This document shows positions 20,787 to 55,224 of a DNA stretch of 64,000 nucleotides, in pieces. The translations under genes and the position numbers were made by a program. Below the pieces are notes generated by a model. It saw nothing but the letters and a program-made list of their open reading frames with translations. It made no database searches and was not told the DNA's origin. Numbering within the stretch: the first letter of the stretch is position 1; every line of letters starts with the position of its first letter. Source of the stretch: Hemileia vastatrix. Its lineage: Eukaryota; Basidiomycota; Pucciniomycetes; Pucciniales; Zaghouaniaceae. The stretch lies in contig JASXTE010000011.1 of NCBI GenBank assembly GCA_030280995.1, forward strand, positions 26,520,817 to 26,584,816. The letters run 5' to 3'.

Positions 20787-22394
20787 CAACTGGAGTTGAA
20801 GCTGGTGTAAAGGAGTGTATAGCTTGAAAAATATCAGCTTCAACTGAGACTCCACTATGTTAGCTAAGTGTTAAAAGCAATGCACAGTATTCTTCTCACT
20901 ACTTGTCCAAATTTTTTATTCTCCAAAACTATACTCAAAAGTGAAAATCTTGAAAAGTGGTAATGGAGATGAGAAGAAGAAGAGTTTAATAAGTACAATT
21001 TTAACCAGATAAGAGTAATGCATATGTTTAATTATTAAATTTGTATATAAGGAAATAGATATAATATAGGCATGAAAAAAAGGAGATGAATGTTACCTAT
21101 ATTGAAAAGTATGAAGAATAGAGTGAGAAAGATTGATGTTCAAATTTAGGAGAAATTGAATATTGAGTAAGTGAAATTCATAAAGAATGTGAAATGTATG
21201 TGTTTTAATGACATGGAGCCAAAAAAATTGAAATAGGGAAAAGGATGTATTTACCATGTCAAGGAGGAATGAAGAGTAGGGTGATGGAGCTAAAAAAGAA
21301 AGTAAAGAGGGAGAGAAAAAAATGTTAATTTTGCTATTGAAACCAAGAATAACCACTTTCAAAAAAAAATCTAGATACAAAAAATAAAAAAAACAAAAAA
21401 AAATATTATTAGCAATCAAAAAATCAAAAAAGTAAATAAAATGACTTACCTAAAGAGATGAGATGAGAAAATAAATGAAACCAAATTATTTGAGGGATGT
21501 TGGGGGAGAAGAAGAAAAGGATATGAGGGATGAATGAAAAAAAGAAACAGTGAAAAATTATAGAATTGCAGAAAATATGTGATTTCATTTTGAGCTGGTG
21601 AATGAAAACAAATGAGACATCCAAAAAAGAGACATTCAGCGTAAATTCAGAATAAAAATAAATATCCAAAAAACAAAAATGCCAAACCAAGTGAATAAAG
21701 CACAGAAGTTGATAATTTGAAGAGTATGAAAAAATTTTTAAAAGGGTTGTGTTTGAAAATTTTGGAGGTTTGTTGGCATAATGACAGAGTGTATGCTGGG
21801 GGAAAAAATGTTTTGTGATTCAAGGGAGGGGAGAGCTGGTGCAGGTCTGGGTTCATCTTCTTCATAAAGATCATTGAAAAGACATATAAGCTAAAGTGTC
21901 TTCTAACCCAGTGTCAGAGTCAGAGTCAGCAGCTAAAACTAAAGTGATAGCATTCATAGCTGTGTGAAGTTGCTTCCTAGTAGAGGGGTGCTTCATTATT
22001 TTCAGTAGAAAAGGTTGTCAATAGAAGGTTTAGGTGATGAGTGGGAAGTGGGAACTCACCACCAAATGAGCAGATGGGGTGGGTAGATAGAAAAAAATTT
22101 TATGTGTTCCCCACAAAAATTAAGTATCATAGAGTGATGAGATACATAAGGATGGCATCTAAAATTATATGTCATGTGACTTGCTTATAAAGCAATCATG
22201 GATGTGATGAGTCTGGGATCAGGAATTAGGAATGGATATTGGGGTATAAGAGGCAGGATAATGCATTATTGTGGATTCCTTATCCACTAGCCCTGGGGCT
22301 AGTGGATAAGAATCATCCACAATTAATAATTTCTGATCCTGGGAAAAAAAATTCCTGATCCCTAATTAAAGATCCCTAAACATCGATACCCCCT
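20787..22394 (-). mobile_element. Harbinger-like element D remnant
   Basis: On the minus strand, 22394 starts AGGGGGTATCGATG, a terminus matching another copy that ends at 55887. Further in (about 21660-21400 and 21370-21250) the sequence matches copies A and B of the Harbinger family: the CTCAxxATGAAATCxCATATTTTC segment, the CTCATCTC motif before GGTAAGTCA, a T-rich tract and a TCTCTCCCTCTTT stretch. No transposase or other intact gene is visible. The termini are a different subfamily from A and B. The 20787-20990 part has no recognised content beyond the short coding-like tail noted for the spacer. Confidence 0.6.
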
Positions 22395-27110: not shown

Positions 27111-28650
27111 CAGTACCCTGACAAAAGGTTGAGTCCAAATTCATTTATTTATTACTCATAAACCTTTTATTCAAATTCTATAAAAATTTGATATATGATA
27201 GAATAGAGACTCTAGAATAAGAATATAATAGCAAAAAATGAAAATAAATAGTTTCCCCATATAGATTTACAGCTTTCTTGTGGCTTAATTTTCCAAGTCA
27301 GTGAGGAAACATCTAAAAAATATGAAAAAAATACCATTAGATAGTTTGGATAGAATAATGAAAATTTGCACAAAACAGAATTTAAAAATAATAAAAACTC
27401 ACAGAGAAAAAAAATATTTTGTTTTCAGTCACCATAAGATGGTTCCACCATGTGCCTTGACAACAAACTCCATTTGAGATGGCATTGATGCCACTAAATT
27501 TTCTAGAAACTATCAGGAAAGCTCTCCCAAGCCATCTTGAGTGCAATCTTCATCTGGTTGATATTTTTTGGCTGATAATAGTCTTGAATGGTAGTTTTGA
27601 GTTTATGTCATACATTTTCTATAGGGTTCAAATCCGGAGATTGAGAAGGCCAATTTTCCATTTTATGAATGTTTTCTTTTGATCTATAGTCTTTACAATG
27701 AAGAGATGTGTGTATTGGAGAATTATCTTCCATTAAGATGAGTTTGTTAGCTGGATCATGCTTAGCAAGAAAAGGGAGAAGGGTATCTTTGTAAACATTC
27801 AGAACAAAATCAGTTGATTTCTGTTGGTTTTGAGGAAGAAATGTGAGAGGTGCTTTTATAGTATTAAAAAAAGCACCCCAGACCATAACTAATGTGCGTC
27901 CACTTCTAAAAGTTGGTTGAATCATCTCCTCCTGAAATCGTTGACCATTCTTTTGCCACACTAATGTTTTTTTTGACTTCTTTCCAATCTCAAAACTTGA
28001 TTCATCTGAGAAAATAACCCTTTTCCAATCATCCACAGTCCAGCTTAAGTGATCCTTAGCAAATTCAAGTCTCTTTTGCTTGTGAGTTTTGTTTAAGTAT
28101 GGTTTTTCAGCAGCAACTCAGCAGTGGAATCCAAGCACATGTGCATGTCTTTGGACAGTTTGGCAAGAAACATTAGCAGACAGTGAGTCAGTTATTTCAG
28201 CTAATGTTGCTTTTGGATTAGTTTTTAGCACACATGCAAGCTGCCGAAGATCTCTGTCAGTCATTTTCAAGACTGTGCCCCTCTGACGGTATCTTGACAT
28301 AATGGAAGATACAGATGTTCGAGGCATTTCTTGTAAAGATTCCCTTGCTCACTAACCGGAAAACTGTAGCTTTTTCTTCAGTTGTATAGTACTTTTTTTC
28401 AGATTTCTTGCTTGCCATCTAAACAAGTTTCAGGAAAGAAAAACAAATTCATTTGAGAAGTTTAAAATGCAAAAAAAAGGATGATAACAAAAAAAAAATA
28501 AACTTACTATTGAAGAAAGAAGGGTGCAAAATCAAAATACAAAAAAAATGATGGTGGCGGAGATTATTGTTGTGCTGAAGTAAACTGGCGAAGATGGGGC
28601 AAGTTCAAAACAACCTCCAATATCGGACTTAACCTTTTGTCACCCCACTG
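27111..28650 (-). mobile_element. Tc1/mariner-type DNA transposon
   Basis: 1540 bp between TA dinucleotides (27109-27110 and 28651-28652). The terminal inverted repeats read CAGTACCCTGACAAAAGGTT on the left and, on the complement of the right end, CAGTGGGGTGACAAAAGGTT. It carries one transposase gene on minus with inactivating changes, so this copy is non-autonomous. Confidence 0.92.
27429..28418 (-). pseudogene. Tc1-like transposase, inactivated
   Basis: The start ATG at 28418 opens a short reading that shifts frame near 28350. The N-terminal helix-turn-helix region (28327-28118) ends at a TGA where the family has W in HVLGFHCW. The catalytic part (28036-27608) has the DDE-type motifs VIFSDES, LMEDNSPIH and SPDLNPIEN; by my count 35 residues lie between the second D and the E, close to the usual 34. 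It ends at a TGA where W is expected after NPIENV, and one more frameshift precedes the C-terminal end at 27429. Both nonsense changes fit TGG to TGA. Confidence 0.92.
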
Positions 28651-29250: not shown

Positions 29251-30780
29251 ATTGGTGAAGTGTAGTGTCTCATGTGGTGTTAAGTGAGAGTGAAAAAATG
29301 GATAAGTAATGAAGCGCATCTGGGTTCAGTAGACACTGCGATGAATGTTTGTTTTGTCTTGGGGCGCAACAGTGGCGCAGCAATTACGCAACGGGGTTAT
29401 GCAACAATTGTTTTTAGAACCTACAGGTCTTAAGTGGTTCTTAAGTGTAAAAAACAATTATTTCATAACTGTTGCACAATTTTTGCACAATTGTTGTGCC
29501 TCATGGCGAAACAAATATGTGTCATAGTGAGATAATGAATGGTTTGAAAAAAGTGGCGCGAGGATTTGCGTCTTACAGAAGCAGGCTGTATTGACTCCAG
29601 CAACTTTGCTCATTTTGATGAATGAATACAGAAAAAATTAGTAACTGGAGTCTAATTGAGCAACGAATGAGGAATAAGTCGGTAAAATATGCATACCGAA
29701 CGAGTTTACCGACACGGTTGGAGATGCTCTTACTCTAGCTCAGGGTGGCCCAGTTAAAAGCTTTTACCTTGTCATTTCACCAGGTTGATGATACATCAAG
29801 TAAATATAGTAGTAAGCGCTTTAGCCGGCCATAGTAAAATTAGTATGCTTTCTATATTTAAAACTTGCGGAGCAGCTGAAGGTATCTTCGCTGGTACCTT
29901 TTAGATTAAGTAACTGATGTATGTTCTACGAGAAAGTGATTACCATTGTTTTTTCATGTTTCAAAAAAATTCTTACTCAAGCAAGTAGATTTTTTGGGGT
30001 AATCAACTCAATTGTATCATATTCATAGTCATATGCATTCTTCTGAAAAGATACAGCTACTTGGAAAAACCTTGCTCTTTTTCTGCCTCTCATCCCCCGC
30101 CAAAAGCGAACTAAACCCATGTTTTTGGCGGGGTATCGAAGGCAAAAACATAGCAGGCTTTTTTCAAATAGCTTTAACTTGTATTTCTCAAAATTTGGCA
30201 GAAGAAGGGGATAAATGTGTAATCCACGGATTATGATGGAGAGTTATTACTCCCCGAAGCATAAGCAATACTCGGCAAGGAGCGCAGGTCACACAGCATG
30301 CTTATTTGAGGAGCTAGGTATTTAACTTCAGATTTTTCTTTTTATTAGTTCTGCAGAATACTGGAATCTGTCGCACGACAAAGCAGTGGGAGGTGAGGTT
30401 AGGTTTTATGTATCAGGATGAGTTGAAGAAATAATGCCATCAAGTTGTTAGTTTGGATGAATTGACTTTAGTGTGAATTTATCTTTACTTTACTCCAAAA
30501 GGTTTTCCTTGAAGGGTCGTCAAATATTAGGGGCTGGCTGTGCGGAAATCGTCTATGAATTTATGATACTTCTTTGCCGAAAAACTTATAAAAACTGTCA
30601 CACATCCTTCATTGGATGTCAAATTGGCTGCGATTTCATCCCCTCTTTTTTTTCGCAAACCTTAGAACCACAAAATTTTTATTGGCGCCTGCTACAAGGC
30701 GGCTCCCCTGAATAGAACTACCATAGTTCAGTCAAGGGTAGCGACTTGCTACCAAACTGGGTTTTTTAGGTGTAAGTAGA
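29251..30780. other. Upstream intergenic region of the GH16 pair
   Basis: Less AT-rich than its surroundings and apparently unique sequence. It contains GCGCAACAGTGGCGCAG-like words near 29365 and a short fold-back with stems CCCCGCCAAAA and TTTTGGCGGGG (30095-30105 and 30123-30133). Small open frames (30012-30236, 30473-30715) lack any recognisable domain and I do not call them genes. Confidence 0.45.
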
Positions 30781-30781
30781 T

Positions 30782-30788
30782 TATAAAT
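30782..30788 (+). promoter_or_regulatory. TATA-like box upstream of first GH16 gene
   Basis: TATAAATG 57-63 nt before the chosen ATG at 30845. A plausible core promoter element, not proven. Confidence 0.4.
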
Positions 30789-30844
30789 GGTTGGGTTTTT
30801 ACCACAGTATCTTTATTCTCCGTGTATTACAGTCACCTAAAATT

Positions 30845-32041
30845 ATGCTATCCAGATTTTTATTTACTTCAAAATCATTTATATTATGTTTAGTTTTTAT
30901 TCTATTAAGCCAACACTGCCAAACCATCTCGTATGCAAGACTGAATTCCAGGAAAAGTCTCAAATCTCACCATTATGTTCATTCCAACAAGAAATGTACT
31001 CCTTATGTTCACAAATTTAATTATGGGTCTGTTGGAAGTGGAAAAGAGTGGATCGCTTTTTCGACCAGAAAAGACGCATTTACCTCTAGCCATGATGGTG
31101 TAAAACTTGTGTTACATCCCCCTGCTGGCTCAGTCAAAATTTCTGAAGACGGTCTAACTAATGATAAAGTGGGAGATGGTTCAACCCTTAATTCAACTTA
31201 TTCATTCTTGTACGTCACTAAAATTATCTCTATCATTTTTCTGTTCCTTATTATTCAGTTTTCCATATTGTCTAATTAAGTTTGATTTCTTCATTGGCTG
31301 GAAACATCATGTATTCTTAGATATGGAAAAGTAACCATTACTTTAGCTGCTTCAAGGGTCCCTGGCACCGTCACAGCTGCAGTCTTGTTTGGAACGGCCT
31401 CTACTGATGAGATCGATGTTGAAATTTTAGGAGGGGATCAAACCCACTGGCAAAGCAATGTTTTTCGCCCTGCTCCGGGCGAGATAAGTCCCCTTTACGG
31501 CGTTTTTGGTAAAATTCATGATTATATAAAAGGATCAGCGGCCGACTTGCACACCTATACCGTCGATTGGAGCCCAGAAAAGGTATTAGTACAAATGTTG
31601 ACTTGTAATTTGCGATGAATATATATATTAGAAGCTGATCATGTCTTTTTTTTACAGCTCATCTGGTCAGTCGATGGGAAACCAGTAAGGACTTTGGCTC
31701 GGGAACAAACAAAACGTGGTGACTACTTCCATTATCCCTCGGCTACCTCTCGGATTCAGGTATGTTTCATCTTATCTTAGATATCTAAGACCAAGGATCA
31801 AAATTTTTAATAATTGAAACGGACTGTACACTTCTTGATAGATTGGTGTGTGGGATGCCAGCAGACCGACCGGTACAAGTAAATGGGCTCACGGTCCGAT
31901 TCTTTGGTTTGTATTTCCGTCTTTTTCTTTGCATATGTACATACAGTTTTATCAACATGTTTTCATTCATGTTGTAGGTCGAAAGTAAAAAAGCCGATAA
32001 CGGCTCTGATGAAAGAAGTGAAAGTTGAATGCCCCTACTAA
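30845..32041 (+). CDS. Secreted GH16 (Crh-like) protein 1, five exons
   Basis: Exons 30845-31209, 31321-31582, 31658-31759, 31842-31906 and 31978-32041 join to 285 residues. An earlier in-frame ATG (30791) exists, but 30845 matches the paralogue's start (MLSRFLFT / MLTRILFT) and begins a signal peptide. The GH16 signature is DEIDVEILGGD with the catalytic E152, D154 and E156 (E-x-D-x-E) all present; YGKV precedes it, and HTYTVDWSPEK plus IWSVDGKPV follow, as in Crh-type cell-wall transglycosylases that link chitin to glucan. An NSTYSF glycosylation site is conserved in both copies. No GPI signal is seen; the protein ends VECPY. Splice phases are consistent throughout. AATAAA lies at about 32104. 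Substrate is inferred from family. Confidence 0.88.
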
Positions 32042-32934
32042 ATGAAGAAAGACTACTTCACTTGCTTGATTACTACAATATATATACAGATTAATCCTCC
32101 AAATAATAAAACTATACTTCAAAAATATCCCATAATGATAATATATTGGGACAATGATTTTTTTCTAAGTTTGATACTTAAAATTTTTCATTTATTTTGG
32201 GTTGTGGATCTTGGTGTTTAGAAATCATTCATACTTGATTGATATGCTGTCCTTAAATTTTGGGAAAACTATAAATAAAAGTGAAATTACATGAACAGCC
32301 ATGGGCGGAATTATTTAACTTTAATAAAGTGACTAAGCACTATAAAATAAGAGTCCATGAGACCTGTTGAATTAAATAACACCATGCAAGTCATTCATAA
32401 ATTTTAAATATTTTGTAGCACAATAAAAAAATGTATGTATCGTTTTATCAGTATATCCAGGACAAGGAGTTAAAGTATGGTGCAGGGGACACATGAAGGC
32501 TTTATACCCCCTTTAATACCACTGGACACTAGAAAACGAAGGGAGGCCAAGCAGGGTCGTCATTTATAAGTTTAGGTGTAAATTTTAATTTTCCTACTTT
32601 TATTTCCTCACCAACCATTTAGATTTGTCACTTGAAAATAAGAATTAAGTTTTGGTGAGAGAAAATAGTATTCATTTCGGAATGTGATGTGATATAACAC
32701 AGTGAGCCAAGAAATGGTATAATGATGATTTAATAGTTAAGCTTATCTTAACTTATTCGGCATTTCATCGTTTTATTGTATCCTTGGAATCTTTAAAGTT
32801 GAAACGGTAAAAAATATCAACATAAACCCCTGACTTAATACCATTTTCAGCCTTTAATTTTTCACATTTTTAGTATACCACAAAAGACACACTTTCTTGT
32901 TTTTTTTCTGTATAGTTACCAATCAATAAAGAAG
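32042..32934. other. Intergenic spacer between GH16 paralogues
   Basis: 893 bp of AT-rich DNA with the 3' UTR of the first gene and, near its end, ACCAATCAATAAAG just before the next ATG. No transposon ends or coding frames were seen. Confidence 0.5.
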
Positions 32935-34151
32935 ATGCTTACAAGAATTTTATTTACAAAAAGATACTTTATATCAATTTTATTTCTCGTTAATTTCAGT
33001 CAAGCTTGTGACAACACCACTACTAAAAAGCCAAATCCAGACCAACATAGCCATCAGCCAAATCGTACAACTGATTCCAATAAGAACTGCTTTCCCTATG
33101 TTCACAGATTTAATAGTGGTTCTATTGGGAGTGGGAAACAGTGGAACCAACTTTCCAAAAGAAAAGATTCGTACACTTCTAACAGTGAAGGTGTAAGACT
33201 TGTGCTAAATCCGCCTGCTGGTTTAGTCAAAATTTCTGAAGACGGTTTGACTAATGATAAAGTGGGAGATGGGTCAACTATAAACTCTACCTATTCATTT
33301 TTGTTCGTCACAAAAAAAAAATCACTTATAATCGCTCATATTTTTTTATGATTGAGCCTTCTATAATGTTATCTAAAAATTTATTTGTCACTTCTTTTTT
33401 TCATTCATTCATTCTTTTGATAGATATGGAAAAGTGACCTACACTTTAGCTGCTCCAAGCGTCCCGGGTACCGTGACTGGAGCAGTTTTATTTGGGACTC
33501 ATTCAGCCGATGAAGTTGATGTTGAAATTTTGGGAGGAGATCCATCTCATTGGCAAACCAATGTTTTCCGACCTGCTCCTAACGAAACAACTCCTCTGTA
33601 TGGTGCTTTCGGTGGAGTTCACAATTATTCACAAGGTTTAGTTGATGAATTACACTCCTACACAATTGATTGGAGTCCTGATAAAGTGCGAGAATTAAAT
33701 TATAATGCTTAAATTGGTTTGGATATGGACGTTTGAATCTGATCACATTATCCTTCTACAGATTATCTGGTCCGTTGATGGAAAGGAAGTGAGAACACTA
33801 ACTCGGGAACAAACAAAACGCGGTGGTCACTTCCACTACCCGTCAGCTACTTCTCGTTTTCAGGTAATTGTTTTAAAACATTTTCTAGATGTATATAAGA
33901 TGAAGATTTCGAGTTTTAAGGATTGAGATAAACTTTGAGATTTTCTAATAGATTGGTTTGTGGGATGCAAGCGCACCACTTGGTACCAGTAAATGGGCTC
34001 GTGGTCCTATTCCTTGGTTTGTGTTCAATTTTATATTATTAATTCTAAATATATACATAGAGCTATATCAATATTTTTATCCTTCAGGTCGAAACTAAAA
34101 ACTTCCATAACGGCTGTATTAAAAGAAATAAAAGTGGAATGCCCTTACTAA
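32935..34151 (+). CDS. Secreted GH16 (Crh-like) protein 2, five exons
   Basis: Exons 32935-33302, 33424-33685, 33762-33863, 33952-34016 and 34088-34151 join to 286 residues. Exons 2-5 have exactly the same lengths as in the upstream gene (262, 102, 65, 64 nt) with the same phases, so this is a tandem duplicate. The catalytic motif is DEVDVEILGGD (E153, D155, E157 intact). An N-terminal hydrophobic signal is followed by a histidine/threonine-rich segment unlike paralogue 1. Donors of introns 1, 2 and 4 are GTTCGT, GTGCGA and GTTTGT, unusual after GT, yet their frames fit perfectly. AATAAA is at 34156. The proposed role is cell-wall glucan/chitin remodelling. Confidence 0.88.
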
Positions 34152-34463: not shown

Positions 34464-35158
34464 TCTTTATCTGAAGAAAACAATATGGTTATAGTTTTAT
34501 GAAAACAAATCAAATAAAAATAAAATTGTGAGATGTAAGAAAAAGATTTCTGAAGAACATTAAACAAACATTAATTAATTGATTTCTATGATATATATAT
34601 ATGAATTAGGGGGTGTCAGTTCTGGCAAATCTGCACTTAAATTTGACTAAATCCACACTTATTTAAGTGCGGATTTCCAAAACACACTAGCCCCAACACT
34701 GGTGGATTTCAAAATGAAATAAGTCACTTATTTCACTCAAATCCACACTTTCTCAACTAAAAGTGCTGATTTCACCATAACATCCCACTTCACTGATTTG
34801 TCAGCATCATCCCATTCATACTCAGCACTCCACAGCATAACACTTTATAACTCAAAACATTGTACATAATTTACATTTCTATACCATATAAGAGTCATGC
34901 CTTCCTCACTCTCAATTCACCACCTCAACATGAAATCACATATTTTCATCTATCACATAATTTTTCAGTCATTCTTTTTTTTTTCATTCATCCCTAATAT
35001 CCTTTCCCTCTTCTCCTCAAACATCCCTCAAACATTTTGGTTTCATTTATTTTCTCATCTCATCTCTCCAGATAAGTCTTTTTATTCATTTTTTTGATTT
35101 TTTGATTGCTAATTACAATTTCTTTGTTTTTTTTTCTGTTTTCTGTTTTCTGTTTTCT

Positions 35159-35190
<32 letters not shown>

Positions 35191-35285
35191 TAAGTGGCTC
35201 TTTTTCTGGTTTTCAAGGTTAAATTAACTCTTTTTTATTGTTCTTTCTCTCCCTCTTTTCTCTTTTTTTAACTCTCCATCATCCT

Positions 35286-35700
35286 CTCTTTATCCCTCCT
35301 TGACCTGGTCATTATCCCACCTTTCCCCCCTTCTTGATATCCTCATTCCTACCTTTCCCCCCTTTCCCTTCTCTTTGGATGCCTCTAACCCCCTCCTTTC
35401 ACCCCTACAGCTCCCTCAACCCCCCTTTCCTCCCCCTATAACTCCCTCAAACCTCCCCCTTCAAACCCCCCCTCAAACCCCCCTCAAACCCCCCTCAAAC
35501 CCCCCTCAAACCCCCCTCAAACCCCCCCTCAAACCCCCCCTCAAACCCCCCTCAACCCCCCTCAACCCCCCTCAACCCCCCCCCTCTGGTCCCCCTCATA
35601 TCCCCATATAACCCCCTCAAATCCCCCCTCAACCCCCCCTACAACCCCCCCTACAACCCACTTCAATCTTCCCCCTAGTTCCCCTCTTACCCCCCCCTTC
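35286..35700 (+). repeat. C-rich arm of the inverted repeat in copy B
   Basis: Pyrimidine-rich sequence with many CCCCCCTCAAA units after a T tract; the matching G-rich arm lies at 50165-50430. In copy A the two arms are adjacent. Proline-rich open frames over this tract are artefacts of composition. Confidence 0.8.
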
Positions 35701-37450: not shown

Positions 37451-38978
37451 TTTCATCATAAGATAATTTTTGCTTGAGGTCTGTTCTCAGTGGTGGTATC
37501 ACTATGCAAACTGTACTCTCTTTTTTCTTCTTTTACTTGAGTCATGAGAGGAATAATTTGAGGGGAAAGATGGTATTTTTGAAAAAAAATTCCTTTTGTG
37601 TGAATTCTGTCTTTGAGTGTGAACCTTTCTCTTTCTCTGTATTGTAGTTTAGTAGTCTTAGTCAACATTGTGTTGTTTTCTATTGTTTCATATGGTGAGA
37701 TTTGTCATATAATCAAGCCTCTTCTTGCTGTTTCCATTTTCCCCATCAATTTTTTTTCTCTCTATTCTCTTTATCACTTCCATTTCTCCCTCCTGTACAC
37801 TGCTTCCCCCTTGGCTGAAACTTACATTCCTTGAATTTTTGGGGGATAATAGATTCCTTTTTCCAGGTTCTTTCATTTTAATTTCTGCTTATTCTTTTAA
37901 TCCTAACCACAGAAACTCATCTTTTTGTACCTTCTTATTTCATCACATGCTTTTTTGTAGTTGTTATAAGGTGCACAGTTGCTGATTGACCTATTTTTAG
38001 GTATGTTTGTTTTTGAAATGATATACAAGTATTTTTACCTCTATTATCTTTATCCCCTGAATTGATCCCTCCTGTTAACTTCTTCACCCTTGGCTGCATC
38101 TGACAGTACTTGCTCCATGTGGGAAGAATAGAGTATTCTTTCCATTTTTATCACATGCTTTGTTGTTGTTTCTTATTGAAAGGTGAAAAGTTTCTCATTG
38201 ACATGTTTTTCACATTCCCCTGTGCTAAAAAATCTTCATTGATGTCTTTTATAGAATGATAAGGTTTGATAAGAAATAAAGAATCAGGGGAGATAGAGGA
38301 TATTTAATTGTTTTGATTGAATATATCTTTCACAGGACAGCCCAAATTAATCAATGGGTTATAGTCAGGAATAAGATTAATTATGTTGGGGAGTGACTCA
38401 AGTCCTTGGGAAATAGTTATTAGGAAATTAGAAAGATAGAAATTCAAAATATTAATTAGTAGGGGGAAGTTGGTATCTTTTTGGGGTAATAATGTATTTT
38501 CAACTCATATAGAGGATGAATCCTTCCCTAGAAGCTAAACCCCCAACAGGAGAAAATAAAGTTTGATATCCTGAGAGGCCAATTATTACATAGAGGATGT
38601 GGGAATTAGAAGGGCACTGTTTACTAATGTTAATATGAGTTGAATGTGCCCTAGCCCTGATAATAGGGGGTGTCAGTTCTGGCAAATCCGCACTTAAATA
38701 AGTGCGGATTTCCAAAACACACTAGCCCCAATACTGGTGGATTTCAAAATGAAATAAGTCACTTATTTCACTCAAATCCGCACTTTCTCGACCAAAAGTG
38801 CTGATTTCACCATCAAGTCCCATTTCACTGATTTGTCAGCATCATCCCATTCATACGCAGCACTCCGCAGCATAACACTTCATAACTCAAAACATCGTAC
38901 ATCACTTACATCTTCATATCATATCATATAAGAGTTATGCCTTCCTGACTTTCAAATCGTGATAAATTACATAAAGCA

Positions 38979-40199
38979 ATGACTTTCATGGCTCTTGAAC
39001 TGCTCTTGGACTCTGATTCCGATTCTGATCTAGAAGAAGATTTTGTCGTTTTATCAAAAATGGCCAGGAAACATTACCTTCTTCCCAGAAAGCCTCAAGT
39101 ATTAATTTATACCCCCAAGTACACCATCCAAACACTTCTTAACCTATCTACACCCAGTTTTAGACAGCTGTTCAGGACTTCTCAGGAATGTTTCCTTAAA
39201 TTGCTTGAGCTTATTCAGGATCATCCCATATTTCACAATAATTCTCAAAAAGAACAATGACATCCTTCAATTCAATTGGCCATCACACTATGTCGTTTGG
39301 GTTCAAATGGTAATGGAGCCACTTTGAAACGTTTAGAAAATGTCTTTGATTTAGGGTATGGTCCAGTTAACACTTATACCAAACGATGTATCACTGCCAT
39401 CAACTCCTTGGAATCTCAACTTCTCACCTGGCCAACAAAAGAAGAGCGACTTGAATCATCTCAGGTTATGCAAGCAGAGGGTTTCCCAGGATGTATTGGT
39501 TTTGTTGATGGTACTACTATTCCTTTGAGCCAGAAACCTGCTCAAGGTGGAAACAATTACTTTGACCGTAAAAAGAGGTAGATTATTTTTAACTCCTTTC
39601 ATCCTCTTTGAAACTAACACAAACAAATATATCTTCTTTATAGATATTCAATTAACGTTCAGCTTATATGTGACGTAAACAAAAAATTTATATCATTCTT
39701 CGCTGGCTATCCTGGCTCATGTCATGACTCCTACGTCTTCCAAAGAATGAAAATTTCAAATGAACCTGAAAAATTCTTTGATGAAGATCAGTATCTTCTT
39801 GCAGATTCTGCTTATGTGAATGGAAAATATGTACTTCCTGCTTTTCGGGGAGCAGCTTCAGAAGACAGTCAAAGTTCCAAATTCAACAATCATTTGGCAA
39901 AGTCAAGAGTCCGTATTGAACATTCTATTGGAATCTTGAAAGGCCATTTTTCTAGTTTAAGGGAATTAAGAAGTCCTCTTAGAAATAAATCTGAAATGGA
40001 GGCGGTGATCAACTGGATTCTGTGTTGCACTATACTTCATAACCTACTTGCTGACCTCAAAGATCAATGGTTAGAGCTGTATGACGATGAACAAGTTGAC
40101 TCACCTCCGACTATATCCAACACTTCTATTTCTCAATCAACTAGTATAAGGGCGAAAATTCTTCCAATAACACTCCAACATTTTTCAACGCAATTTTAA
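38979..40199 (+). pseudogene. Harbinger DDE transposase, one nonsense codon
   Basis: Two exons, 38979-39577 and 39644-40199, with a 66-nt intron (donor GTAGAT, branch ACTAAC, acceptor TATAG) joining in frame to 384 codons. It is a DDE_Tnp_4-type transposase: D177 in FVDGTT, D228 in GSCHDS, E292 in RVRIEHSIG, and the strongly conserved HPS..LAI.L.RLGSNGNGA and FAGYPGS motifs. Codon 94 is TGA immediately before HPS, where CGA would need only a C-to-T change. Otherwise the reading frame is intact, so the copy died recently or the stop is read through. It acts in the nucleus to cut the element ends, with the Myb-like protein as DNA-binding partner. Confidence 0.93.
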
Positions 40200-40639
40200 T
40201 TTTTTTTTCTTTCTCTTCAAATTATCAATTTGCATGTGTTATTCACTGAGAATGGTAAATTTTTTTGCATATTTTTTTGGTTTTTGAATTTGCTGTTAAA
40301 GTCTTATTTTTTTTTCTCTCTGTGTTTTCTTTCATCAACTCAACATGAAATCGCATATTTTCAGCAAACGCATATTTTTTCAGTCACTCTCTTTTTTTTC
40401 TTCACTCATATCCGTTTTCTCCTCTCTTCCTACATCACTCAATCAATTTCACTTATATTTCTTTTTTCTCAACTCATCTCTCCAGGTAAGTCATTTTATT
40501 TTTTTTACTTAATTTTTTGCTAATTTTTTTTTTTTTTGGTTTTTTGGTTTTTTTTTTTTTTTTTTTTTTGTTTTTTTTGTAAGTGGTTGTTTTTAAATTT
40601 ATAGGTAAAATTAACCTTTTTTTTCTCTCTCTTTCTCTC

Positions 40640-41360
40640 CCTCTTTTCTCTCTTTATCCCCCCTTGGCCTGGTCTTTTTCCCACCTTTACCCTCTCCTTG
40701 GAATGGGTACATCCCCCTTTTCCCCCCTTTGGCTGCCTTATTCCCCCCTCCTTGGCTCACTCTAACCTCCCTTTTCTCCCTATTTGGTCTCATCTCTCCC
40801 TTTCTCCCCCTTCTTGGTCTCCCCATATCTTCCCCTCATTTCACTCCACCCCCCACCAAATCCCCCAAATCCCCCCACCAAATCCCCCAAATCCTCCCTC
40901 CAAATCCCCACCAAACCCGCCTCTAACCCCCCCTCCAAACCCCCCTCCTATCCCCCTCAAAACACCCCCAAATCCTCCCTCATATCCCTCCTACCCCCCC
41001 TTAAACTTCACTTAACGATTTGTTAACGAATCGTTAAGTAAGTTGGGGAGGTTAGGGAGGTTTAGAGGGAGATATTGGGGGGGTTTCAAGGGGGATTTGG
41101 AGGGGGGTTAGGGAGGGTTTGGAGGGGGTGAAAGGAGGTGGATTGAAGGGGGTGTTTGGGGGGGTTGCAGGGGGTTTGGAGGGGGATTTGCAGGCGGGTT
41201 TGGAGGGGGGTTTGGAGGGGGGTTTGGAGGGGGGTTTGGAGGGGATTTGGAGGTGGACTTGAAGGGGGGATTTGGGGGATTTGGTGGGGGGTGGAGGGGG
41301 GGTTTTCCAAGGGTTTTTGGGAGGTGGGAGAGGGCTTTGGAGAGGGGAATTTAGGGGAAT
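40640..41360. repeat. C-rich/G-rich giant inverted repeat in copy A
   Basis: A C-rich left arm (about 40640-41000) and a G-rich right arm (about 41038-41360) are imperfect inverse copies; for instance CCCCCCACCAAATCCCCCAA occurs on the left and in the complement of the right. The apex is a short perfect stem, ACTTAACGATT and AATCGTTAAGT, around 41013-41042. The arms have many runs of four or more G or C and strong strand asymmetry. Open frames here are compositional artefacts. Confidence 0.88.
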
Positions 41361-41583
41361 GGGGAAGTGTTAAAAAAAATTTAACAGTTTATTGATTTTT
41401 TTTTTGTTTTTTGATTTTGATTTTTTAATTTTAGAGAAAAATATTCATTAAGTTCAAGTGAAATAAAAAAAATTCTCATTAGTCTTTTGAGGAATTTTTA
41501 TTTTTAATTTAAATTAAGTGAGTTTTTTTTAATGTATAATTTTGGGTGTTTGAAAAGTAACAAATTTTTAAGTAGAAAAATAC

Positions 41584-42692
41584 ATGACTTTAACTTCAGA
41601 TTCACCACTTACCTCACTCTCATCTTCTTCAACTTCATTATCATCTTTAAATTCAGCTTCTTTTCAATCATCATCTAAAACATTGTCAAAAAATGAAAAG
41701 TATCGAAATAAAAGAAATTATAAAATAAAAATTCACTTGGATCAATTATTTGGCCATATTTCAAAAATCAAGTACTATAAAACTAAAGTTGAAAGAAAAA
41801 AAAATATCCGAAAACGTTACCTGAAAATATACATTATTTAACTGAAACTGGAGGTGATGAAGTTAAAGCTGTTATTAATAATACTTTCAAACCTCAATTT
41901 ATTTACGAAAACCATTCTTTTAATGGTTTAAAAGATGAATCATTTAATCAACTCTGCAATCTCATCATAACACTCTATCAAATGGCTTTGGTTCGCTTAT
42001 CTTTAAGGAATAAGAATTTGTTGGGTGGAATCATGATTGGAATTGGATGGAGACCAGGATTTGTTAAAGGTTTTTCTCTTGGTATGTTTAAAGATTTTTC
42101 TAGATTTTTTAATATCATTTTACTGAATTTAATTCAAATAGGCATATATTCTTTACTCAGATCTTTATCTAAAGCTGAATTAGATAATGATTTTCGAAAA
42201 TGGAATACTTTACCTTCATTTAATTCATTTATTGCTCTTCGACTTAAAAAACTCTTCAATAAAGCTTTTGAAAAAAATCATGAAGTTGCTATGAGATTTG
42301 GAATACCAAACTGGTGCGACTCTGAATGGGAAGATATTAGCAGTGATTATCTAATGTTTTCAAATGTTATAATCACTCATTCTGGATTTCATAACCAAAT
42401 TCACACCGACTCAAATGATGCCAATTACCTCACTTATGGAATTTACACATATATTCATCCTATCACTGGACAACCTATTCCATCACCTTCTAAAATTAAA
42501 GGACATGGATTATATTTCCCGGATCATAGATGTATAATCGATTTTGGATTAGGAAATGGAATCATCGAAACAGTTTGGAATTCTTCTTACGATAATCACC
42601 AAACCACAAAGGCTCCTCCAGGTTTGGAATCTTTTCAAGACTTCACACATTTTGGTTGCTCTTTCCAGATCAGTCAAAATTTAATCCAATGA
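41584..42692 (+). CDS. TET/JBP-like 2-oxoglutarate/Fe(II) dioxygenase
   Basis: The long frame from ATG 41982 encodes 236 residues and is open upstream to 41793. A start at 41584 in another frame gives a serine-rich then lysine-rich N-terminus, and the two meet at an A run (about 41796-41804), so one base is probably missing or extra. Total length would be about 370 residues. In the 236-residue part the iron ligands are H141 and D143 in NQIHTDSNDANY and H206 in DNHQTT, with TYGIYTYIHPITG, GHGLYFPDH, IIDFG and ETVWN in the usual spacing of fungal TET/JBP-type oxygenases. The basic 2-oxoglutarate residue expected later may be H223 (FTHFGCSFQI). The family oxidises 5-methyl-pyrimidines in DNA; activity here is inferred. 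Codons are AT-rich like the transposase. It lies between hairpin and Myb gene, convergent with the latter. Confidence 0.78.
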
Positions 42693-43083
42693 ATAAACAA
42701 GTAAAAAAAAGAAGAAAAAGGTAATAAATTTAAACATTCTTTAGGTAGATCTAAAAAGTATGGGGACTTGTAGAGTCACCAAATATTTAATATTCTTCCA
42801 TAAATTTTTAATAAATAAATATGATATTTCAATTTATGAAATTAAAGTAATGGGCCCATGACCTTGTGTTGTATAAATGGTAATCATGATAACATTAATT
42901 TGTTTCATGGGGTTCCTCTAACCTATACCTGTGGAAAGTCCCAAACCTAGTTTCTAGACTTGATCTGCATTTTGGCTTAAGGAATTGTCATTACTTTAAA
43001 AGTAGTATATTTGACATATCTTATTTATATATTAATTAATTTATGTAATTATATTAAATTTTGATGACTTTCACCCTTTACTT

Positions 43084-43345
43084 CAATAAAATGTAGGGGA
43101 GGGTATTGCCAATTTTTTAAATCTGACATGTGAAATTGATGACTTAGAAAAATTTGGTGGTACCCACCCCTTGTTTCAATAAAATGCAGGGGAGGGTATT
43201 GCCAATTTTTTAAATCTGACATGTGAAATTGATGACTTAGAAAAATTTGGTGGTACCCACCCCTTGTTTCAATAAAATGCAGGGGAGGGCATTGCTAATT
43301 TTTTAAATCTGACATGTGAAATTGATGACTTAGAAAAATTTAGAT
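43084..43345. repeat. 93-bp tandem repeat, about 2.9 copies
   Basis: Units begin at 43084, 43177 and 43270 with CAATAAAATGxAGGGGAGGG and end with GATGACTTAGAAAAATTT. Copies 2 and 3 are almost identical. Copy B of the transposon has only two diverged units at about 52840-52985, so the number varies in the family. The preceding 42693-43083 is the 3' region of the dioxygenase gene. Confidence 0.9.
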
Positions 43346-43509
43346 AAGCAAACTTATTGACTAGAAAGTAAAGATAGAAAATTTTTGTTATACATTCAAA
43401 TTTTTGTCAAAAATAACGTACTATATTCAAGACTTTTTATAAGTCAGCATATAAGAAAATATTACCAAAAAGAAATCAAACAAAATTAAATTAACTAGAA
43501 AAACAATTT

Positions 43510-44822
43510 ATCAATTGAAAAGGTCAAGTAATTTTTTAATGTCCTCATAAGATTGGCCATTTTTAACACATTCCATAATGAAATCTTTTTTCTTAAAACT
43601 CTCTTGTTTTTCCAATTCACAAGTAGCCATTTCTCTTTGAAATTGACGGTCATTTACTCTTTCCATCTGCTCTGCCTCAAATTTTTTTCTTCCAAATCTA
43701 AGGCTTGCTGATCTTTCCTTAGCATATGATCAAACTTCATCTTCTCAAAGTCAAGGGCTTTATTTGCAATAGTTGATTTCACTGAGAAAATTAAATTGAA
43801 ATAAATAAATAAATGAGTTAATGATTAAGATATATAGTAAATGAAACTTACTTATATCTTTTTTTCAAAATAATCCTCAAGGGAGCCAAATGAGCTTGTT
43901 GAAGTATTACCTCGTTTTAATAGATGGTTCAAGTTCATTGAAGTTGAGGCTCGACGCTTTAGTTTGGAGTTTGAACAAGAGGCTTCAGGAAGTTCATCTA
44001 AAGCAGCTTCTAAAGTGGGATTCACATTTCCAGAATTGAGATTATTTAATGGAGATTGAGTTTGAGTAGGAGGAGACTAGAAAGAAAGAGAAATTCAGAG
44101 AAGAATTGAAGAAAAAACAAAAAGTAAACATACATTTAAATTTTGGGCCTCTGAGGATTCAGATCTTCTGCGATATAACTGTTCTGCTTGATAGTTGGGA
44201 TCATCTTCAGCTGAACTATGGTTAGAAGGTAGAGGGGATTGATCTTCTTCAAGTAAAGGTGTGTTGGGAGGATTATAGGAAGGTTTGGATCCAGAGGGTA
44301 TATGCTTAGTAGTATCGTGTAGAAACCAAGGGTTTAAATCAACTCGGGAGCCAAAAAGATTATCCATTTCCTCATAGAAAGGACACATGACATTGAGCTT
44401 TTTGGAAACAATAGTAATTCCAATCTCCAAATCATCATTGTCAATACCAAAGCCAGTTTTATTTGCAGCATGATGAGTCTTTTTATATTTTGAATGGTAA
44501 CTCTTAAATCTCTCCTTCATTTGTTTAGGATTGATATCGATTCTCCCCTTGTTTTCTTCCTTACTTCATTGGCCATCAACAAGTAGCCATTAACCTTTGA
44601 AGAAGGTGGACGTCCAATACGAGTGGACTTTTCACATCTAAAACATGCTTCAAAATTTGATTTTATTTTAAGGAAGTTGATTATGATGAGATAATCATCC
44701 TTTTTAAGCTGACCTGAACCTGCCTTTGATTTTTCAGGTGTAGGGCTTGCTTTACGAGAAGACTTTTGTGATGAAGCAGATTTTTGAGTTACCTTTTGAG
44801 ATTTGGAATGTCTGGGAGGCAT
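43510..44822 (-). pseudogene. Myb/SANT-like Harbinger accessory protein, frameshifted
   Basis: On minus: exon 1 from ATG 44822 to 44134, intron 44133-44077 (GTATGT...TTCTAG), exon 2 44076-43852, intron 43851-43782 (GTAAGT...CTCAG), exon 3 43781 to TGA 43510. The N-terminus is a basic S/K-rich tail, then a trihelix/Myb-like domain (KKDDYLIIINFLK...QMKERFKSYHSKYKKTHH...) and CPFYEEMDNLFGS; the C-terminus is an acidic coiled coil ending DIKKLLDLF. Relative to copy B, one base is lost near 44540, one near 43865 and one near 43690, so the gene is broken. The family role is to bind the element ends and recruit the transposase. Confidence 0.8.
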
Positions 44823-45159
44823 TATGAAACTGGCACATAACAAGAAAAAAGATTAAAAAGTAGAAGAAATAAGTAAAAAAGAATGTAAACATGCCTGGTC
44901 AAAATATTGAAAATGTCAGGAAGGGGTGTGTGCCGAGGATTGATGGGTAGGTAGCGAGGAAGGTCAGTGTGTCACATGTGACAGGGATGTTTTGTGGCCA
45001 AAATGTGGTTGTGAAAAAAAACGGGAAAAAAGTGCTGATTTGAGGTCATAACTGACACGCTTTTTTGAAATAAGTGACTTTTTTGCAAAATTTAAGTGCT
45101 GATTTGGTTTGAAATCCGCACTTAATTTAAGTGCGGATTTGCCAGAACTGACACCCCCT

Positions 45160-46384
45160 AATATGTTATGTATGAGAGAGATGAAGTGAAAAAGGTTTCT
45201 CAATAAAACCTGGGAAGCTTCTGAAGTCAGATATGTGAAATTGAAGTAAGCTAATACAGATGGGAGAGGAATTATACAATGATTCCATCTTGAATATAAA
45301 TTAGTTATGAGAGGAAAGACAATAATTCAGGAATATATTACTATTTATAAAAGACTAAAAACATTTCTTGGAAAAGTAAGTCACATTATTTGAATGATGA
45401 ACAGATTTCCAATAATTTTCAGAGATTTTTTAATAACTCTAGGTTGAGATAAACCATCAGGAAATATGTCAGAAGCTAATATTATCTGAATTATAATTTG
45501 TACATAGATTGAAGTCACAAGAGGTCCCACTTGACCAATGAAAATTTCAAAAATTAATGATTGGTTTTTTCATGTATAATTTGAACTCCACTTGTTTAAA
45601 ATATGAATTAAGGTTTTCTCCCAAATTAAAAGAATAGATTAGGAAAAATTGAAAAGTAAAAAAATACTGAAACTTCCACTTTTACAAAATAAGAAACCAA
45701 ATTTTTGACTTGTGAAAAATGCTTATGGACACATAAATACATCCAGTAATTTTCTCATGTTTCTATTATCTAGTATTGAAATAAAAATGCAGGATCTGAA
45801 GGGCCTGGAATATGCTCTTACTTTAAAGTCCTGTTTTAAAAAACTGCACAAAAATAAGTTAAAATAAAAGTGGATCTCAGTCAAAGTATATGAAAAATCT
45901 ATTATTGCACATGCCTTGTAATCTTACTTGATTTCTGTTTAAAATCCATAGCACAGGTTCAACTTCTTATAGTCAAAAAAGTGTTAGTAAGTTTATGAGA
46001 TTAAGTCTATCTAATAAAATGATTTATTTTTAATAAAAAATATTATATTATATTTTTCCTCTGGAATTCTCTTAAAAAAGTTTAAAATAGTAAAACCAGA
46101 TTTTAATTCACTGAACTCAAGTTCCAGTACAAATAAAGAAATTCATAAAGATACTCAACAATATATATTTACAAAAAACTTCAGCAACTTGAAGTGCTCT
46201 ACAGTCATGCTCTGGGGTGCCCCACCCTGCCCCCCTTTTGGCAGCCACAAGGCCTTGCACAAGCCTCTCAAAATAACACTTGCTTACTTCAATTTTTTCA
46301 TTCTTACTTAGCATATTTTTATCATATACTCTGAATTTTTTCATACAATGAAGTTTTAAAATGAGTCAGATAAACTTTTCAACA
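45160..46384. other. Element C interior, no gene seen
   Basis: AT-rich sequence right of copy A. A minus-strand frame at 46117-46344 contains a GC-richer island (GLVAAKRGAGWGTPEHDCRA) that stands out from the surroundings, but it has no recognised family and no supporting neighbours. Confidence 0.4.
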
Positions 46385-50430: not shown

Positions 50431-50794
50431 GAAAGGTGACCAAGGAGGTAGTAATGAAAACATTTACAGAAAATTTTTTCAGGGACCAATGAGGGAGCAA
50501 TTAAAAAATTGACAGAAAAGTTTTATTAACATTTAATTTTTTTCTTTTTTTTGTTTTTTGTGCAGAATTAACCAAAAAAACTCCTCAAATTGAAGTAAAG
50601 TAATAATTATTCCTATTAATTATTTTCAAAAAATTTTTTAGGTCTTTTAATTTAAGTTGTGTGAGTTTTAATTTATTTTTAAAAAATAAACATGACATTT
50701 TTATAACCAGTAAAAAGTTTTTTTAGAAAAAAAAGCCTGTTTCTTTTGATTCAAGCCTTACACCTCTATCATCATCTTTCTCTTTATATTTCCC

Positions 50795-50975
50795 CAATAA
50801 TAGGTGTATAATTGATTTTGGATTAGGAAATGGAATCATAAAATAAGTTTGGAAATCCTCTAATGATAACCACCAAACAACAAAAGCTCCTCTAGGTTTT
50901 GAATCTTTTCACAACTTTACTCATTTTGGCTGCTTCTTACAAATAAGTCAAAAGCTAATTCAAAGGATAAAAAAG
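50795..50975 (+). pseudogene. Dioxygenase gene remnant in copy B
   Basis: GTGTATAATTGATTTTGGAT onwards matches the 3' end of the copy A dioxygenase (from about 42530): IIDFGLGNGII, then a TAA, NHQTTKAP, and FTHFGC. The middle of the gene, including the HTD iron ligands, is deleted. Finding the same gene tail at the same place in a second, diverged copy shows that the dioxygenase belongs to the transposon family. Confidence 0.88.
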
Positions 50976-51139
50976 GTAAAAAAAGAAGTTAAAAGTAATA
51001 AATTAAAAAAAAACTTTAGGTAGATCAAAAAATTTTGGTGATTTGTAAAGTCATCAAATATTTTTTATTCTTTTGTAAATTTTTAACAAATAAATCTGAT
51101 ATTTGAATTTACTAAACTAAAGTAATGAGCCAACAACCT

Positions 51140-52622
51140 TGTCAGCCTGTATATCCCCAGGAGTGAGTAAAAATTACTTATAAGTTATGTTAAACACATG
51201 AACTATACATGGGAACAATAAATTAGAGTACACAAACAATATACATAAGTAAAATTATGATAATACACAAAAAATGCCATTATAACACCTTATATACACG
51301 CATATATCCACCTTTTATAATTCTTATGTACTTAATATTGAGTTGGAATATGTTATGGTAACCTTAAGAACCTTAATTATAATGCCACATAATTTTTAAG
51401 TACACTTAAAGCTGTTATTTTCATTGTTTTAGGCAAAAAACAAGAAATGTGCTTTAAATCACTTAAAAGTTGATTATATGCGCTATAAATTTAAAAATAT
51501 TAAAAATGCGCTTTGACAGTTCAATTTGTCTCATTTAGGACTAATGATCTAGCTACTTAAATGCATAAAAATAACACTTTTCAAATTTGGTGTTTTTTAT
51601 GCCGGAAATGGCTTCTGTGTACTGGTCACATACTGCCTGCATTTTTCCCGTGTGAATAGATTCATTTTTAGAAAATTTAGCTTTTTCACACTATAATTAC
51701 CCCACATTCTAGGACCACTGTGGGGAAACACACTAAAATAGGTGAGAGGCGCATATTTAGTGTCCTAGGTTAATTAATAATGCATTGACCCTCTTTATAT
51801 GCACTAATTTCATTAATAACCTCACTCTTGGTGCCTTATTTCACTACCATGCTTAAATTTGCCTAAAATTAGTCAAGGATTTACCCATGCAAGCGCCTGC
51901 CAAGGACTGCATGTAGTTACCCCACATCTCACGCCCTTTTTTGGGTTTCTAGGTGGTTTCTCAGTCAATTTTGGTCATTTTTGAATGGGAATTTCACATA
52001 TTATAATGTCAGTATTAGCCCCATCATTTCTACTGTGAATCCCCCTTATTATTAAGCTCTTATTAACCTTAATTTTCCCTCTTTAGTCTTTTATATTGAT
52101 GTATAATACGCATATACTCTCTTTTTTACTTATTCTTTAATTTTGATGGATTTTGGTGGTTGATATTCTTCTAATTATGTTATGGGTCACTTGGAATGTT
52201 GATGGACATTTCTATTAGTTGTATGGAGGCGTCATTAACTGTTTATTGGACTGGTAAATCAAGGGATTCATTGGGGAACTCATTGTGTATAAAAGGAGGA
52301 GGTTTTGTGTCTTTCTTTCTACATTCCTTATCATTACAATTTAAATCATATAACCAAACCAGTTACAATACATATCAATTAGCACTTATAGAGTTATTTG
52401 AATAGTATCTGAATAATTAAAATCTATTTTTCTACCAACTAAAAAGATTTTAAGCCATATATAAAATTAGTGAGAATTATATTACTGAGACCTTTATTTT
52501 GGATTATATTTTACTATTTGTTGGATTTATACTACAGTATTCATATAGGACCATTTAAATCTTCTAGACACAGACTTTTCAAGCTAGTTTACGTCCTTGT
52601 AGCTGATATTAGCCTGAAAAAC
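51140..52622 (+). repeat. Solo LTR inserted in copy B
   Basis: Copy A has no equivalent between its ACCTTG and TTGTATAAATGG. The insert starts TGTCAGCCTGTATATCCCCA, like the complement of the element 1 LTR end (TGTCAGCCTAGGTACCCCCA), and ends near TGAAAAACA. It contains a TATAAAAGGAGG box at about 52278. No gag or pol remains, so it is a solo LTR of a family related to element 1. The exact right end and target duplication are uncertain. Confidence 0.75.
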
Positions 52623-53225
52623 ATTTTGTTGTACAAATGGTAATCATGATAACATTAAATTGTTTCATAGGATTCATCTAGCCTATACTTGTGGAAAGTC
52701 CCAAACTTAGTTTCTAGACTTGGTCCTCATTTTGGCTTGAGGAATTTTCATTACTTTACAGCTAGTAAATTTGATTTATCTTATTTATTTACTTATTAAT
52801 TAATGGAATTATATTAAATTTTGGTGATTTTCACCCCTTACTTCACTAAAATGCAGGGGAGGGTATTGCAAAATTTTCAAATCTGACATGGAAAATTGAT
52901 TACTTAGAAAATTTTGGTGATACCCACCCCTTGCTTCAATAAAATGCAGGGGATGGTATTGCCAAACTTTTCAAACAGATATAGAATTTTGTTCACTTAG
53001 CTTTATTTAGAAATACAAATTGGTAGTGATGTGATAAAATTATGTTGGTAATGAGGATTTTTGCACAGGCGTCAGTATTATTTTTCCATCTGGAATTCAA
53101 AAAGTGCAAAATTTTAGATTTCATTAAGGACAAATGGTGTTATCAGAATCTCATGATATAACTATCTTTGATAAGATTAAAAGTAATTATTAAATTCATT
53201 CCCCAACCATTAATTAAATAAACAA
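52623..53225 (+). other. Copy B region with two 93-bp-type units
   Basis: Sequence equivalent to 42870-43500 of copy A. Two units of the 93-bp repeat (about 52845-52985) are followed by a stretch unlike A (52985-53200). No gene. Confidence 0.65.
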
Positions 53226-54592
53226 TTAATCAATTGAGAAATTCAAGTAATTTTTAATGCCCTCATAAGATTGGCCATTTTTTATACATTCTGTAACTAA
53301 TTCTTTTTTCTAAAAACTTTCTTGTTTTTCCAATTCAGAACTAGCCATTTCTCTTTGAATTTCATGGTATTTTGTTTTCTCCAAGAAAAGGTGAACTCTT
53401 TCCATCTCCTCTGCCTCAAATTTAGCCTTTTCAAAAATTTATTGAAGAAAAAAAAATTTTTCCTCCAAATCTAAGTACCATTTATCTTTAATTAGCATAT
53501 GATCAAACTTCATCTTCTCAAAGTCAAGGTCATTTTTTTCAATAGAGGATTTTTCTGAAAAATTTAATTGAACAAAAATAAATATGTTATTGAAGAAGAT
53601 ATGTAGTGACCAAATCTTACTTATATCTTCTTTCTCAAAATTATTTTCAAGGAAGGAAAAAGAGTTGGTTTAAGTATTACCACATTTTAAAAGATAGTTC
53701 AAGTTCATTGATGTTGAAGCCTGAAGCTTTATTTTGGAGTTTGAGCTAGAGGGTTTAGAAAGTTCATCTAAAGCAGCTTGCAAAGCAAGATTGTCATTGC
53801 CAGAATCATTAATATTTTTTGAAATTTGAGTTTGAGTAGGAGTAGACTAGAAAAGAAAGAATGAGAAATTCAGCAAAGAATTTGAGGAAAAAGAGAAAGT
53901 AAAATTACATAAAAATTTTGGGGCTCTGAGGACTTATATCTACTCCAAAATAATTGTTTTGCTTGATAGTAAGGTTCATCTTCAGGTGAACTATAGTTAG
54001 AAGCTAGAGGGGATTAATTTCCTTGAGTTTCATGTGTTTTGAGAAGATTATTGGCTTGTTGAGATCCAGAGGTTATATCCTTAGTAGTATTGTGTATAAA
54101 CCAAGGGTTTAAATCAACTTGGGAACCAAAAAGATTATCCATTTCCTCATAGAAAGGACACATGACATTGAGCTTTTCAGAAAAAGTTGTAATTCCCATC
54201 TCCAAATCATCATAATAAATACCAAAGCCAGTAAAAGTGAAAGCAAAATGAGTCTTTTTATATTTTAATTGATAACTTTTGAACCTCTCCTTCATTTGCT
54301 TAGGATTGATGTCAATTCTCCCTTTTGTTTCATTTTTCACTTCATTTTTGATCAACAAGAAGCCATTTAAATTTGATGAAGGTGGACAACCAATTTGGGT
54401 AGACTTATCACATCCAAAAAATGCATCATAATTTGATTTAGTTTTGAGGAAGTTAATGATGATGAGATAATCATCCTTTTTTAGCTGTCCAGATTTTGAT
54501 TTCTCAGGTGAGGGGCTTGCATTATGGGAAGACCTTTGTGATGTAGCATTTTTTTGAGTTGCCTTTTGAGTGTTGGTTTTCTTGGGAGGCAT
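53226..54592 (-). pseudogene. Myb/SANT-like accessory protein of copy B
   Basis: From ATG 54592 a first frame of 192 residues is intact: S/K-rich tail, QLKKDDYLIIINFLKTKSNY, RIDINPKQMKERFKSYQLKY, CPFYEEMDNLFGS and VDLNPWF. It ends at 54014, earlier than the equivalent exon of copy A. Downstream exons are recognisable but contain stops (for example in the coiled coil near 53450) and end at TAA 53226. The DNA-binding part is better preserved than in copy A. Confidence 0.8.
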
Positions 54593-54880
54593 TATGAAAC
54601 TTTTATGTTAGAAGAACAAAGATAAAGCAGTTAAAAATATAAAAAAAAGAAGGAAAAAAACATGCCTGGTTAAAATGTTGCAATTAAATGTTTCAAATCT
54701 CAGTGAAGAGTGTGTGCCAATAATTGATGAGGGAAAGGAGTTCTGGGTGTCTTATGTGGAAGGAATAGGTGGGCAAGGAAGGGACCATGTGGCCAAAATG
54801 TGGTTTTGAAAAAAAAATATTGGGAAAAAAGTGCTGATTTGAAGTCATAACTGACACCCATTTTTGAAATAAGTGACTTT

Positions 54881-55140: not shown

Positions 55141-55224
55141 TTTTTTGCAAAATTTAAGTGCTGATTTGTTTTGAGATCTGCACACAAGTTAAGTGTGGAT
55201 TTTACAGAACTTACACCCCCTATT

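Follow-up and report, generated by a model that had tools for sequence, protein, structure and literature searches.

A PIF/Harbinger (PHIS) transposon of the rust Hemileia vastatrix with a TET/JBP-type oxygenase gene and AWT target-site duplications

TET genes have been described in seven transposon lineages of rust fungi (Kojima 2025, PMC12730594). As these lineages are described there, 15 TET-bearing Harbinger families from six species were named PHISTA; they have TA target-site duplications and were found in Puccinia and Austropuccinia. An escape from methylation-based silencing was proposed for them, and none of their third proteins is reported to have a Myb/SANT domain. The rust TETs were classified as a separate (PU) type, and the transposon TETs of Agaricomycetes as the AG type. 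The second system for comparison is the Pangu group of the PHIS superfamily, for which 5'-ANT-3' duplications were shown by empty sites; one section of that paper gives no known motif for the second open reading frame (ORF), and another gives Myb/SANT (Han 2015, PMC4482050). Here, a window of 64,000 nt from Hemileia vastatrix was analysed (assembly GCA_030280995.1, contig JASXTE010000011.1, positions 26,520,817 to 26,584,816, forward strand; the coordinates below are those of the window). It contains a DNA transposon of 6,495 bp, copy A (38665-45159), with three genes inside one pair of terminal inverted repeats (TIRs). The results support its assignment to the PIF/Harbinger (PHIS) superfamily, as a member that carries a TET/JBP-type oxygenase.

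The initial annotation of this DNA knew of no association between such oxygenases and PIF/Harbinger elements; one was reported from Puccinia and Austropuccinia in December 2025 (PMC12730594). The association itself is therefore already published. As far as these literature searches go, neither the second family presented below nor a TET-bearing family with a duplication of the Pangu type has been described. The open-licence literature was searched for Hemileia together with Harbinger, Tet-like oxygenases, or transposable elements; judged by title or abstract start, none of the papers listed deals with such an element. In passages of a 2025 study of rust transposons, PIF-Harbinger is mentioned once, and neither a dioxygenase nor Hemileia is mentioned (PMC12210899). 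According to a 2026 review, transposon-encoded TETs are still awaiting functional characterisation (PMC13297926).

Comparison of the start of the element, which begins with AGGGGGTGTCAG, with its own reverse complement showed that the first 35 bp are identical. The left TIR (38665-38699, plus strand) and the right TIR (45125-45159, minus strand) are thus exact complements, and AAT flanks the element on both sides (38662-38664 and 45160-45162), as had been noted initially. The transposase, in two exons, and the TET-like oxygenase are on the plus strand; the third gene is on the minus strand. The exon 1 region of the transposase (38949-39577) was delimited from the ORFs and by comparison with another copy, L061, and has an in-frame stop at 39258-39260 in copy A. 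A GT..AG intron of 66 nt (39578-39643) is predicted from the sequence. Exon 2 (39644-40199) encodes the catalytic domain: a Pfam search of eight frames of the element matched DDE_Tnp_4 (PF13359) above the cut-off (E=5.3e-25). This is the transposase type of the PHIS/PIF-Harbinger superfamily, and the Harbinger transposase recognised in the initial annotation stands. All three genes are damaged in copy A.

The frame 41793-42692 (299 aa) matched the Pfam family PF20515 with E=2e-30 and 106.8 bits, against a cut-off of 27. The family had been assigned initially by motif, with a hidden Markov model (HMM) search proposed as the check and the lack of any 2OG-Fe(II) dioxygenase match as its refutation; the match is well above the cut-off. 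The HxD...H iron site is formed by H204, D206, and H269 in this frame (first numbered H141, D143, and H206), and the triad is invariant across 17 aligned proteins, three of which belong to the family of copy A itself. The gene starts upstream of 41793, at about 41584. Exon 1 (41584-42081) is broken near 41793 in copy A; exon 2 (42142-42692) contains the codons of the triad (42402-42410 and 42597-42599), the PF20515 match, and the region of the fold matches. The 60 nt between them (42082-42141) are in frame and form a putative intron, as the corresponding residues are absent from the Puccinia proteins P0003, P0004, and P0007, which all span the site. The stop codon of copy A is earlier than that of L061. 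PF20515 relatives of the protein occur in Puccinia and Austropuccinia.

The structure model of the TET protein has a mean predicted local distance difference test score (pLDDT) of 70, with 81-91 for residues 191-290. The first 11 Foldseek matches were all CcTet, and the first ten VIA matches were CMD1 or TET2. The predicted double-stranded beta-helix is closest to the TET/JBP enzymes, and the structural check suggested at the outset thus agrees with the profile match. Searches of PDB sequences with the protein and with its alignment found no TET. Like CcTet and the AG-type TETs of Agaricomycetes (Kyakuja, Zisupton), as these are described by Kojima, the enzyme has a TET/JBP fold and is transposon-borne; unlike them, it does not travel with that transposase superfamily, and the rust TETs form the separate PU type (PMC12730594).

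The third gene (43511-44822, minus strand) has at least three exon pieces, and its frame is broken near 44560 in copy A. The Myb/SANT-like partner named in the initial annotation corresponds to this gene, which is present, but the label is weak. PF13837 (Myb/SANT) matched with E=0.017 in copy A, with E=0.0014 and 0.0018 in the two best other copies, and with E=0.03-0.071 in three more; all of these are under the Pfam cut-off. No protein homologues were found at E<=0.001, a PDB search gave no match, and the structure model (pLDDT 37) was too poor for a fold search. PHISTA elements are described as having a third protein without Myb/SANT (PMC12730594); set against a match under the cut-off, this is not a firm difference.

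The target-site duplication separates copy A from the PHISTA elements. An A-W-T-A border precedes the G run at 42 of 45 ends. This border is ambiguous, and may be read either as a TA duplication or as AWT beside an element that ends in A...T. The same three bases, AAT or ATT, were present on both sides in eight of nine two-ended copies; the ninth has AAT/AGT. At six empty sites (L032, L045, L049, L052, L062, and L075), the flanks were joined with one 3-bp copy or with one TA and were aligned to uninterrupted relatives. The 3-bp join outscored the TA join in all six comparisons, with the caveats that L052 lies within an AT microsatellite and that the relatives of L032 are about 80% identical, some rows being gapped. 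In most alignments shown, a gap of 3 bases had to be opened for the TA join; L045 has 4 gap bases in total in the TA join and 1 in the 3-bp join, and the rows shown for L032 have 1-3 gap bases in the TA join. The duplication is therefore the 3-bp AWT, and a TA duplication was rejected. The AAT at the left flank of copy A is read in the same way, as the 3-bp AWT is supported at the empty sites that correspond to L075 and to the family's other insertions.

Neither the canonical TWA duplication of PIF/Harbinger elements nor the TA dinucleotide of PHISTA thus agrees with the ends and empty sites. The family of copy A is like PHISTA in being a rust Harbinger-type transposon with a transposase, a TET/JBP dioxygenase, and a third gene; it is set apart from the TA duplications given in the text description of PHISTA (PMC12730594). 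By target duplication and TIR features, it is likened to Pangu. The ANT duplication is matched by AWT, and the Pangu TIRs, usually starting with AG or GG and 11-40 bp long, are matched by AGGGGG and 35 bp. A DDE transposase with a further ORF, and basidiomycetes among the hosts, are also shared. Pangu elements differ in having mostly two ORFs and an average length of about 3.5 kb, and a TET gene is unmentioned in the sections covering the group (PMC4482050). AWT beside an element that ends in A...T always leaves TA at the G and C runs, so the published TA calls may merit an empty-site check.

Copies were searched in the 747.6-Mb assembly (791 contigs). Only the best-ranked candidates were scored, 131 of 16069 for the TET frame, 150 of 11033 for the transposase, and 150 of 10849 for PF20515, and all genome counts are lower bounds. 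At least 131 copies were found with the TET frame, every one at least 90% identical, and the matched frame is stop-free in 59 of these 131 (stop-free is not the same as intact). The identical three-gene order was found in four other full copies (L061-L064), one of which, L061, has all three reading frames open. A second, separate family (L075, of the 218-residue type) has the same gene order and orientation. Its identity to copy A is 44% (N-terminal piece), 73%, and 63% for the transposase, 79% for TET, and 44-64% for pieces of the third gene. It has AGGGGG...CCCCCT ends with AAT on both sides, and is inserted in a Ty3 element that has an uninterrupted relative in the window. Because the three-gene order recurs in L061-L064 and in the L075 family, the association is more than chance co-occurrence. 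The further copies anticipated in the initial annotation are present, and the gene is a stable cargo, not the trace of a single insertion event. The PF20515 search also found other TET lineages; at the ten top-scoring loci examined, identity to the TET of copy A is 51-56%.

The ratio of nonsynonymous to synonymous substitution rates (dN/dS) between copy A and L075 is 0.076 for TET (182 codons, dS 1.6), 0.086 and 0.087 for pieces of the transposase, and 0.20 for part of the third gene; synonymous change between the families is close to saturation, and these values are rough. The N-terminal piece of the transposase and another piece of the third gene were saturated and gave no value. Between copy A and copy B, a decayed relative in the window, the values are 0.11 for a TET piece (59 codons) and 0.41 and 0.76 for third-gene pieces. 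Comparison with five more distant TET loci gave 0.21-0.26, each locus having 1-5 stops in the unspliced frame. Judged from these sequence comparisons, the TET gene appears to be as constrained between families as the transposase, and to be kept by selection; the between-family ratio is evidence that the oxygenase matters to the element. One-off capture of the gene was rejected on the many copies, the L075 family, and this ratio. Comparisons within the family show hardly any constraint (0.69-0.77 for copy A against L061, L062, and L064). Among 29 distinct TET copies (L061-L064 being the same copies as L002, L003, L005, and L019, and counted once), non-CpG changes at codon positions 1, 2, and 3 number 37/7742, 17/7814, and 35/7727, with 7/1740 in the intron. 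Such a pattern would be expected if most copies are dead and derive from a source gene under selection.

Many copies lack the TET gene. Among the 30 transposase loci closest to copy A (its own included), the TET side is kept in six, the transposase is joined to the right end in 18 and to the third gene in four, and two are unclear. The loci used here (L001-L030 and L031-L060) are the top-ranked matches to copy A, and are biased to similar, well-kept copies. One shared score, 419.1 bits, was tallied in 119 of the 150 transposase matches listed (the best 150 of 11033), as expected from a recent burst. Copy A, copy B, and L075 agree in the position of the TET gene, and the transposase regions of the TET-less copies are about 97-98% identical to copy A. 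The short TET-less forms are therefore deletions, and the TET-less form was rejected as the ancestor. The copies without the gene that the initial annotation held out as a possible refutation do exist, but as derived deletions they are no proof of a one-off insertion. Short TET-less derivatives are also seen in L041 (529-3056), L035, and L049, and the right subterminal region is repeated in some. As TET-less derivatives were amplified, the TET gene is dispensable in cis for amplification. Their free amplification, the damaged TET gene of copy A, and the scarcely visible selection among young copies would all fit a captured passenger gene of no benefit to the element. This explanation is nevertheless very improbable: its strong form is contradicted by a between-family dN/dS like that of the transposase, and the shared position of the gene in copy A, copy B, and L075 also argues against it.

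The window has a G+C content of 32.7% and a CpG observed/expected ratio of 0.21. In the 29 distinct TET copies, C-to-T changes were found at 75 of 974 CpG positions and at 14 of 7234 other C/G positions, which is about a 40-fold rate. This signature, of 5-methylcytosine (5mC) deamination or CpG-directed hypermutation, suggests that a methylated substrate for the TET enzyme is probably present. The gene might mainly counter the CpG C-to-T hypermutation of the copies, and not silencing; the high CpG rate is in favour, and such a role in rusts was also put forward by Kojima, as described there (PMC12730594). Nine TET-bearing copies have C-to-T changes at 51 of 482 CpG positions of the transposase region, and 21 TET-less copies at 49 of 1218. 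The A/T substitutions of the same region number 37/9043 and 33/22214, respectively, so that the CpG to A/T ratios are about 26 and 27. For this comparison, rows with less than 70% coverage were dropped (21 of 24 TET-less and nine of nine TET-bearing copies were kept), and the majority base was taken over both groups together. Protection in cis from CpG mutation was therefore not seen between these two groups, a weak negative, as the copy ages differ, the samples were chosen by likeness to copy A, and two of the TET-bearing copies (L037 and L051) extend no further than the beginning of the TET gene. The equal relative load has already weakened the anti-hypermutation role, which is rated as improbable.

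The oxygenase probably acts on silencing: it would oxidise 5mC in the DNA of the element, and would relieve the host's CpG methylation while the transposase has to be expressed. TET-less derivatives are numerous, and copies with the gene show no relief from CpG mutation; the action would therefore most likely be exerted in trans and for a short time, and would not permanently protect the copy that encodes the enzyme. The proposal in the initial annotation that the element strips silencing marks from itself thus remains plausible, but its cis protection is not borne out by the similar relative CpG loads. CMD1 makes glyceryl-methylcytosine, JBP starts base J, and CcTet also acts on N6-methyladenine. 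By analogy, the enzyme might make a protective or marking modified base, or act on N6-methyladenine, instead of removing methylation. This seems unlikely, as Pfam recognised neither a glycosyltransferase nor any other modifying enzyme in the eight frames of the element, and the mutation signature at CpG points to 5mC as the relevant mark.

Tentatively, and with less confidence than demethylation itself, the family may be a PHIS lineage of the Pangu type that is equipped with TET; demethylation by full-length, TET-bearing elements would be a shared good that stripped, TET-less derivatives exploit in trans. In the same reading, the TA of PHISTA may be an AWT read short. Few mobile elements have been proposed to bring along an enzyme that erases silencing marks, and those with a TET gene belong to these few. 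As this genome contains many insertions of a single family both with and without TET, the claim that the enzyme would lift silencing can be addressed directly by methylation and expression maps.

Two repeats lie between the genes of copy A. An inverted tract, C-rich and then G-rich (40600-41370, 771 bp, 5 CpG), is located between the transposase and the TET gene, upstream of the latter. Similar sequence is also present at 21304-21782 and 34916-35653 of the window, and C-rich frames are found near the TET genes of other TET lineages too. Self-matches revealed a direct repeat of 93 bp in about three copies (43072-43341), between the TET gene and the third gene.

Copy A is nested, alongside further insertions, between the pieces of copy B, an older related element (34608-55221, plus strand; pieces 34608-35653, 50784-51142, 52621-53000, 53209-54880, and 55141-55221) with ATT on both flanks. 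Copy B retains the 3' end of a TET gene and the third gene. A remnant of another related element lies on the minus strand at 21304-21984, with the tract and a piece 46% identical to the N-terminus of the transposase. A long open Ty3-type polyprotein frame of 1624 residues (14707-19581) provides the empty site for the L049 and L075 insertions. The window also contains a Tc1/mariner-like transposase fragment (27608-28117; DDE_3, E=1.3e-11), and two similar small proteins with hydrophobic starts and no Pfam family over the cut-off (30776-31279 and 32839-33351).

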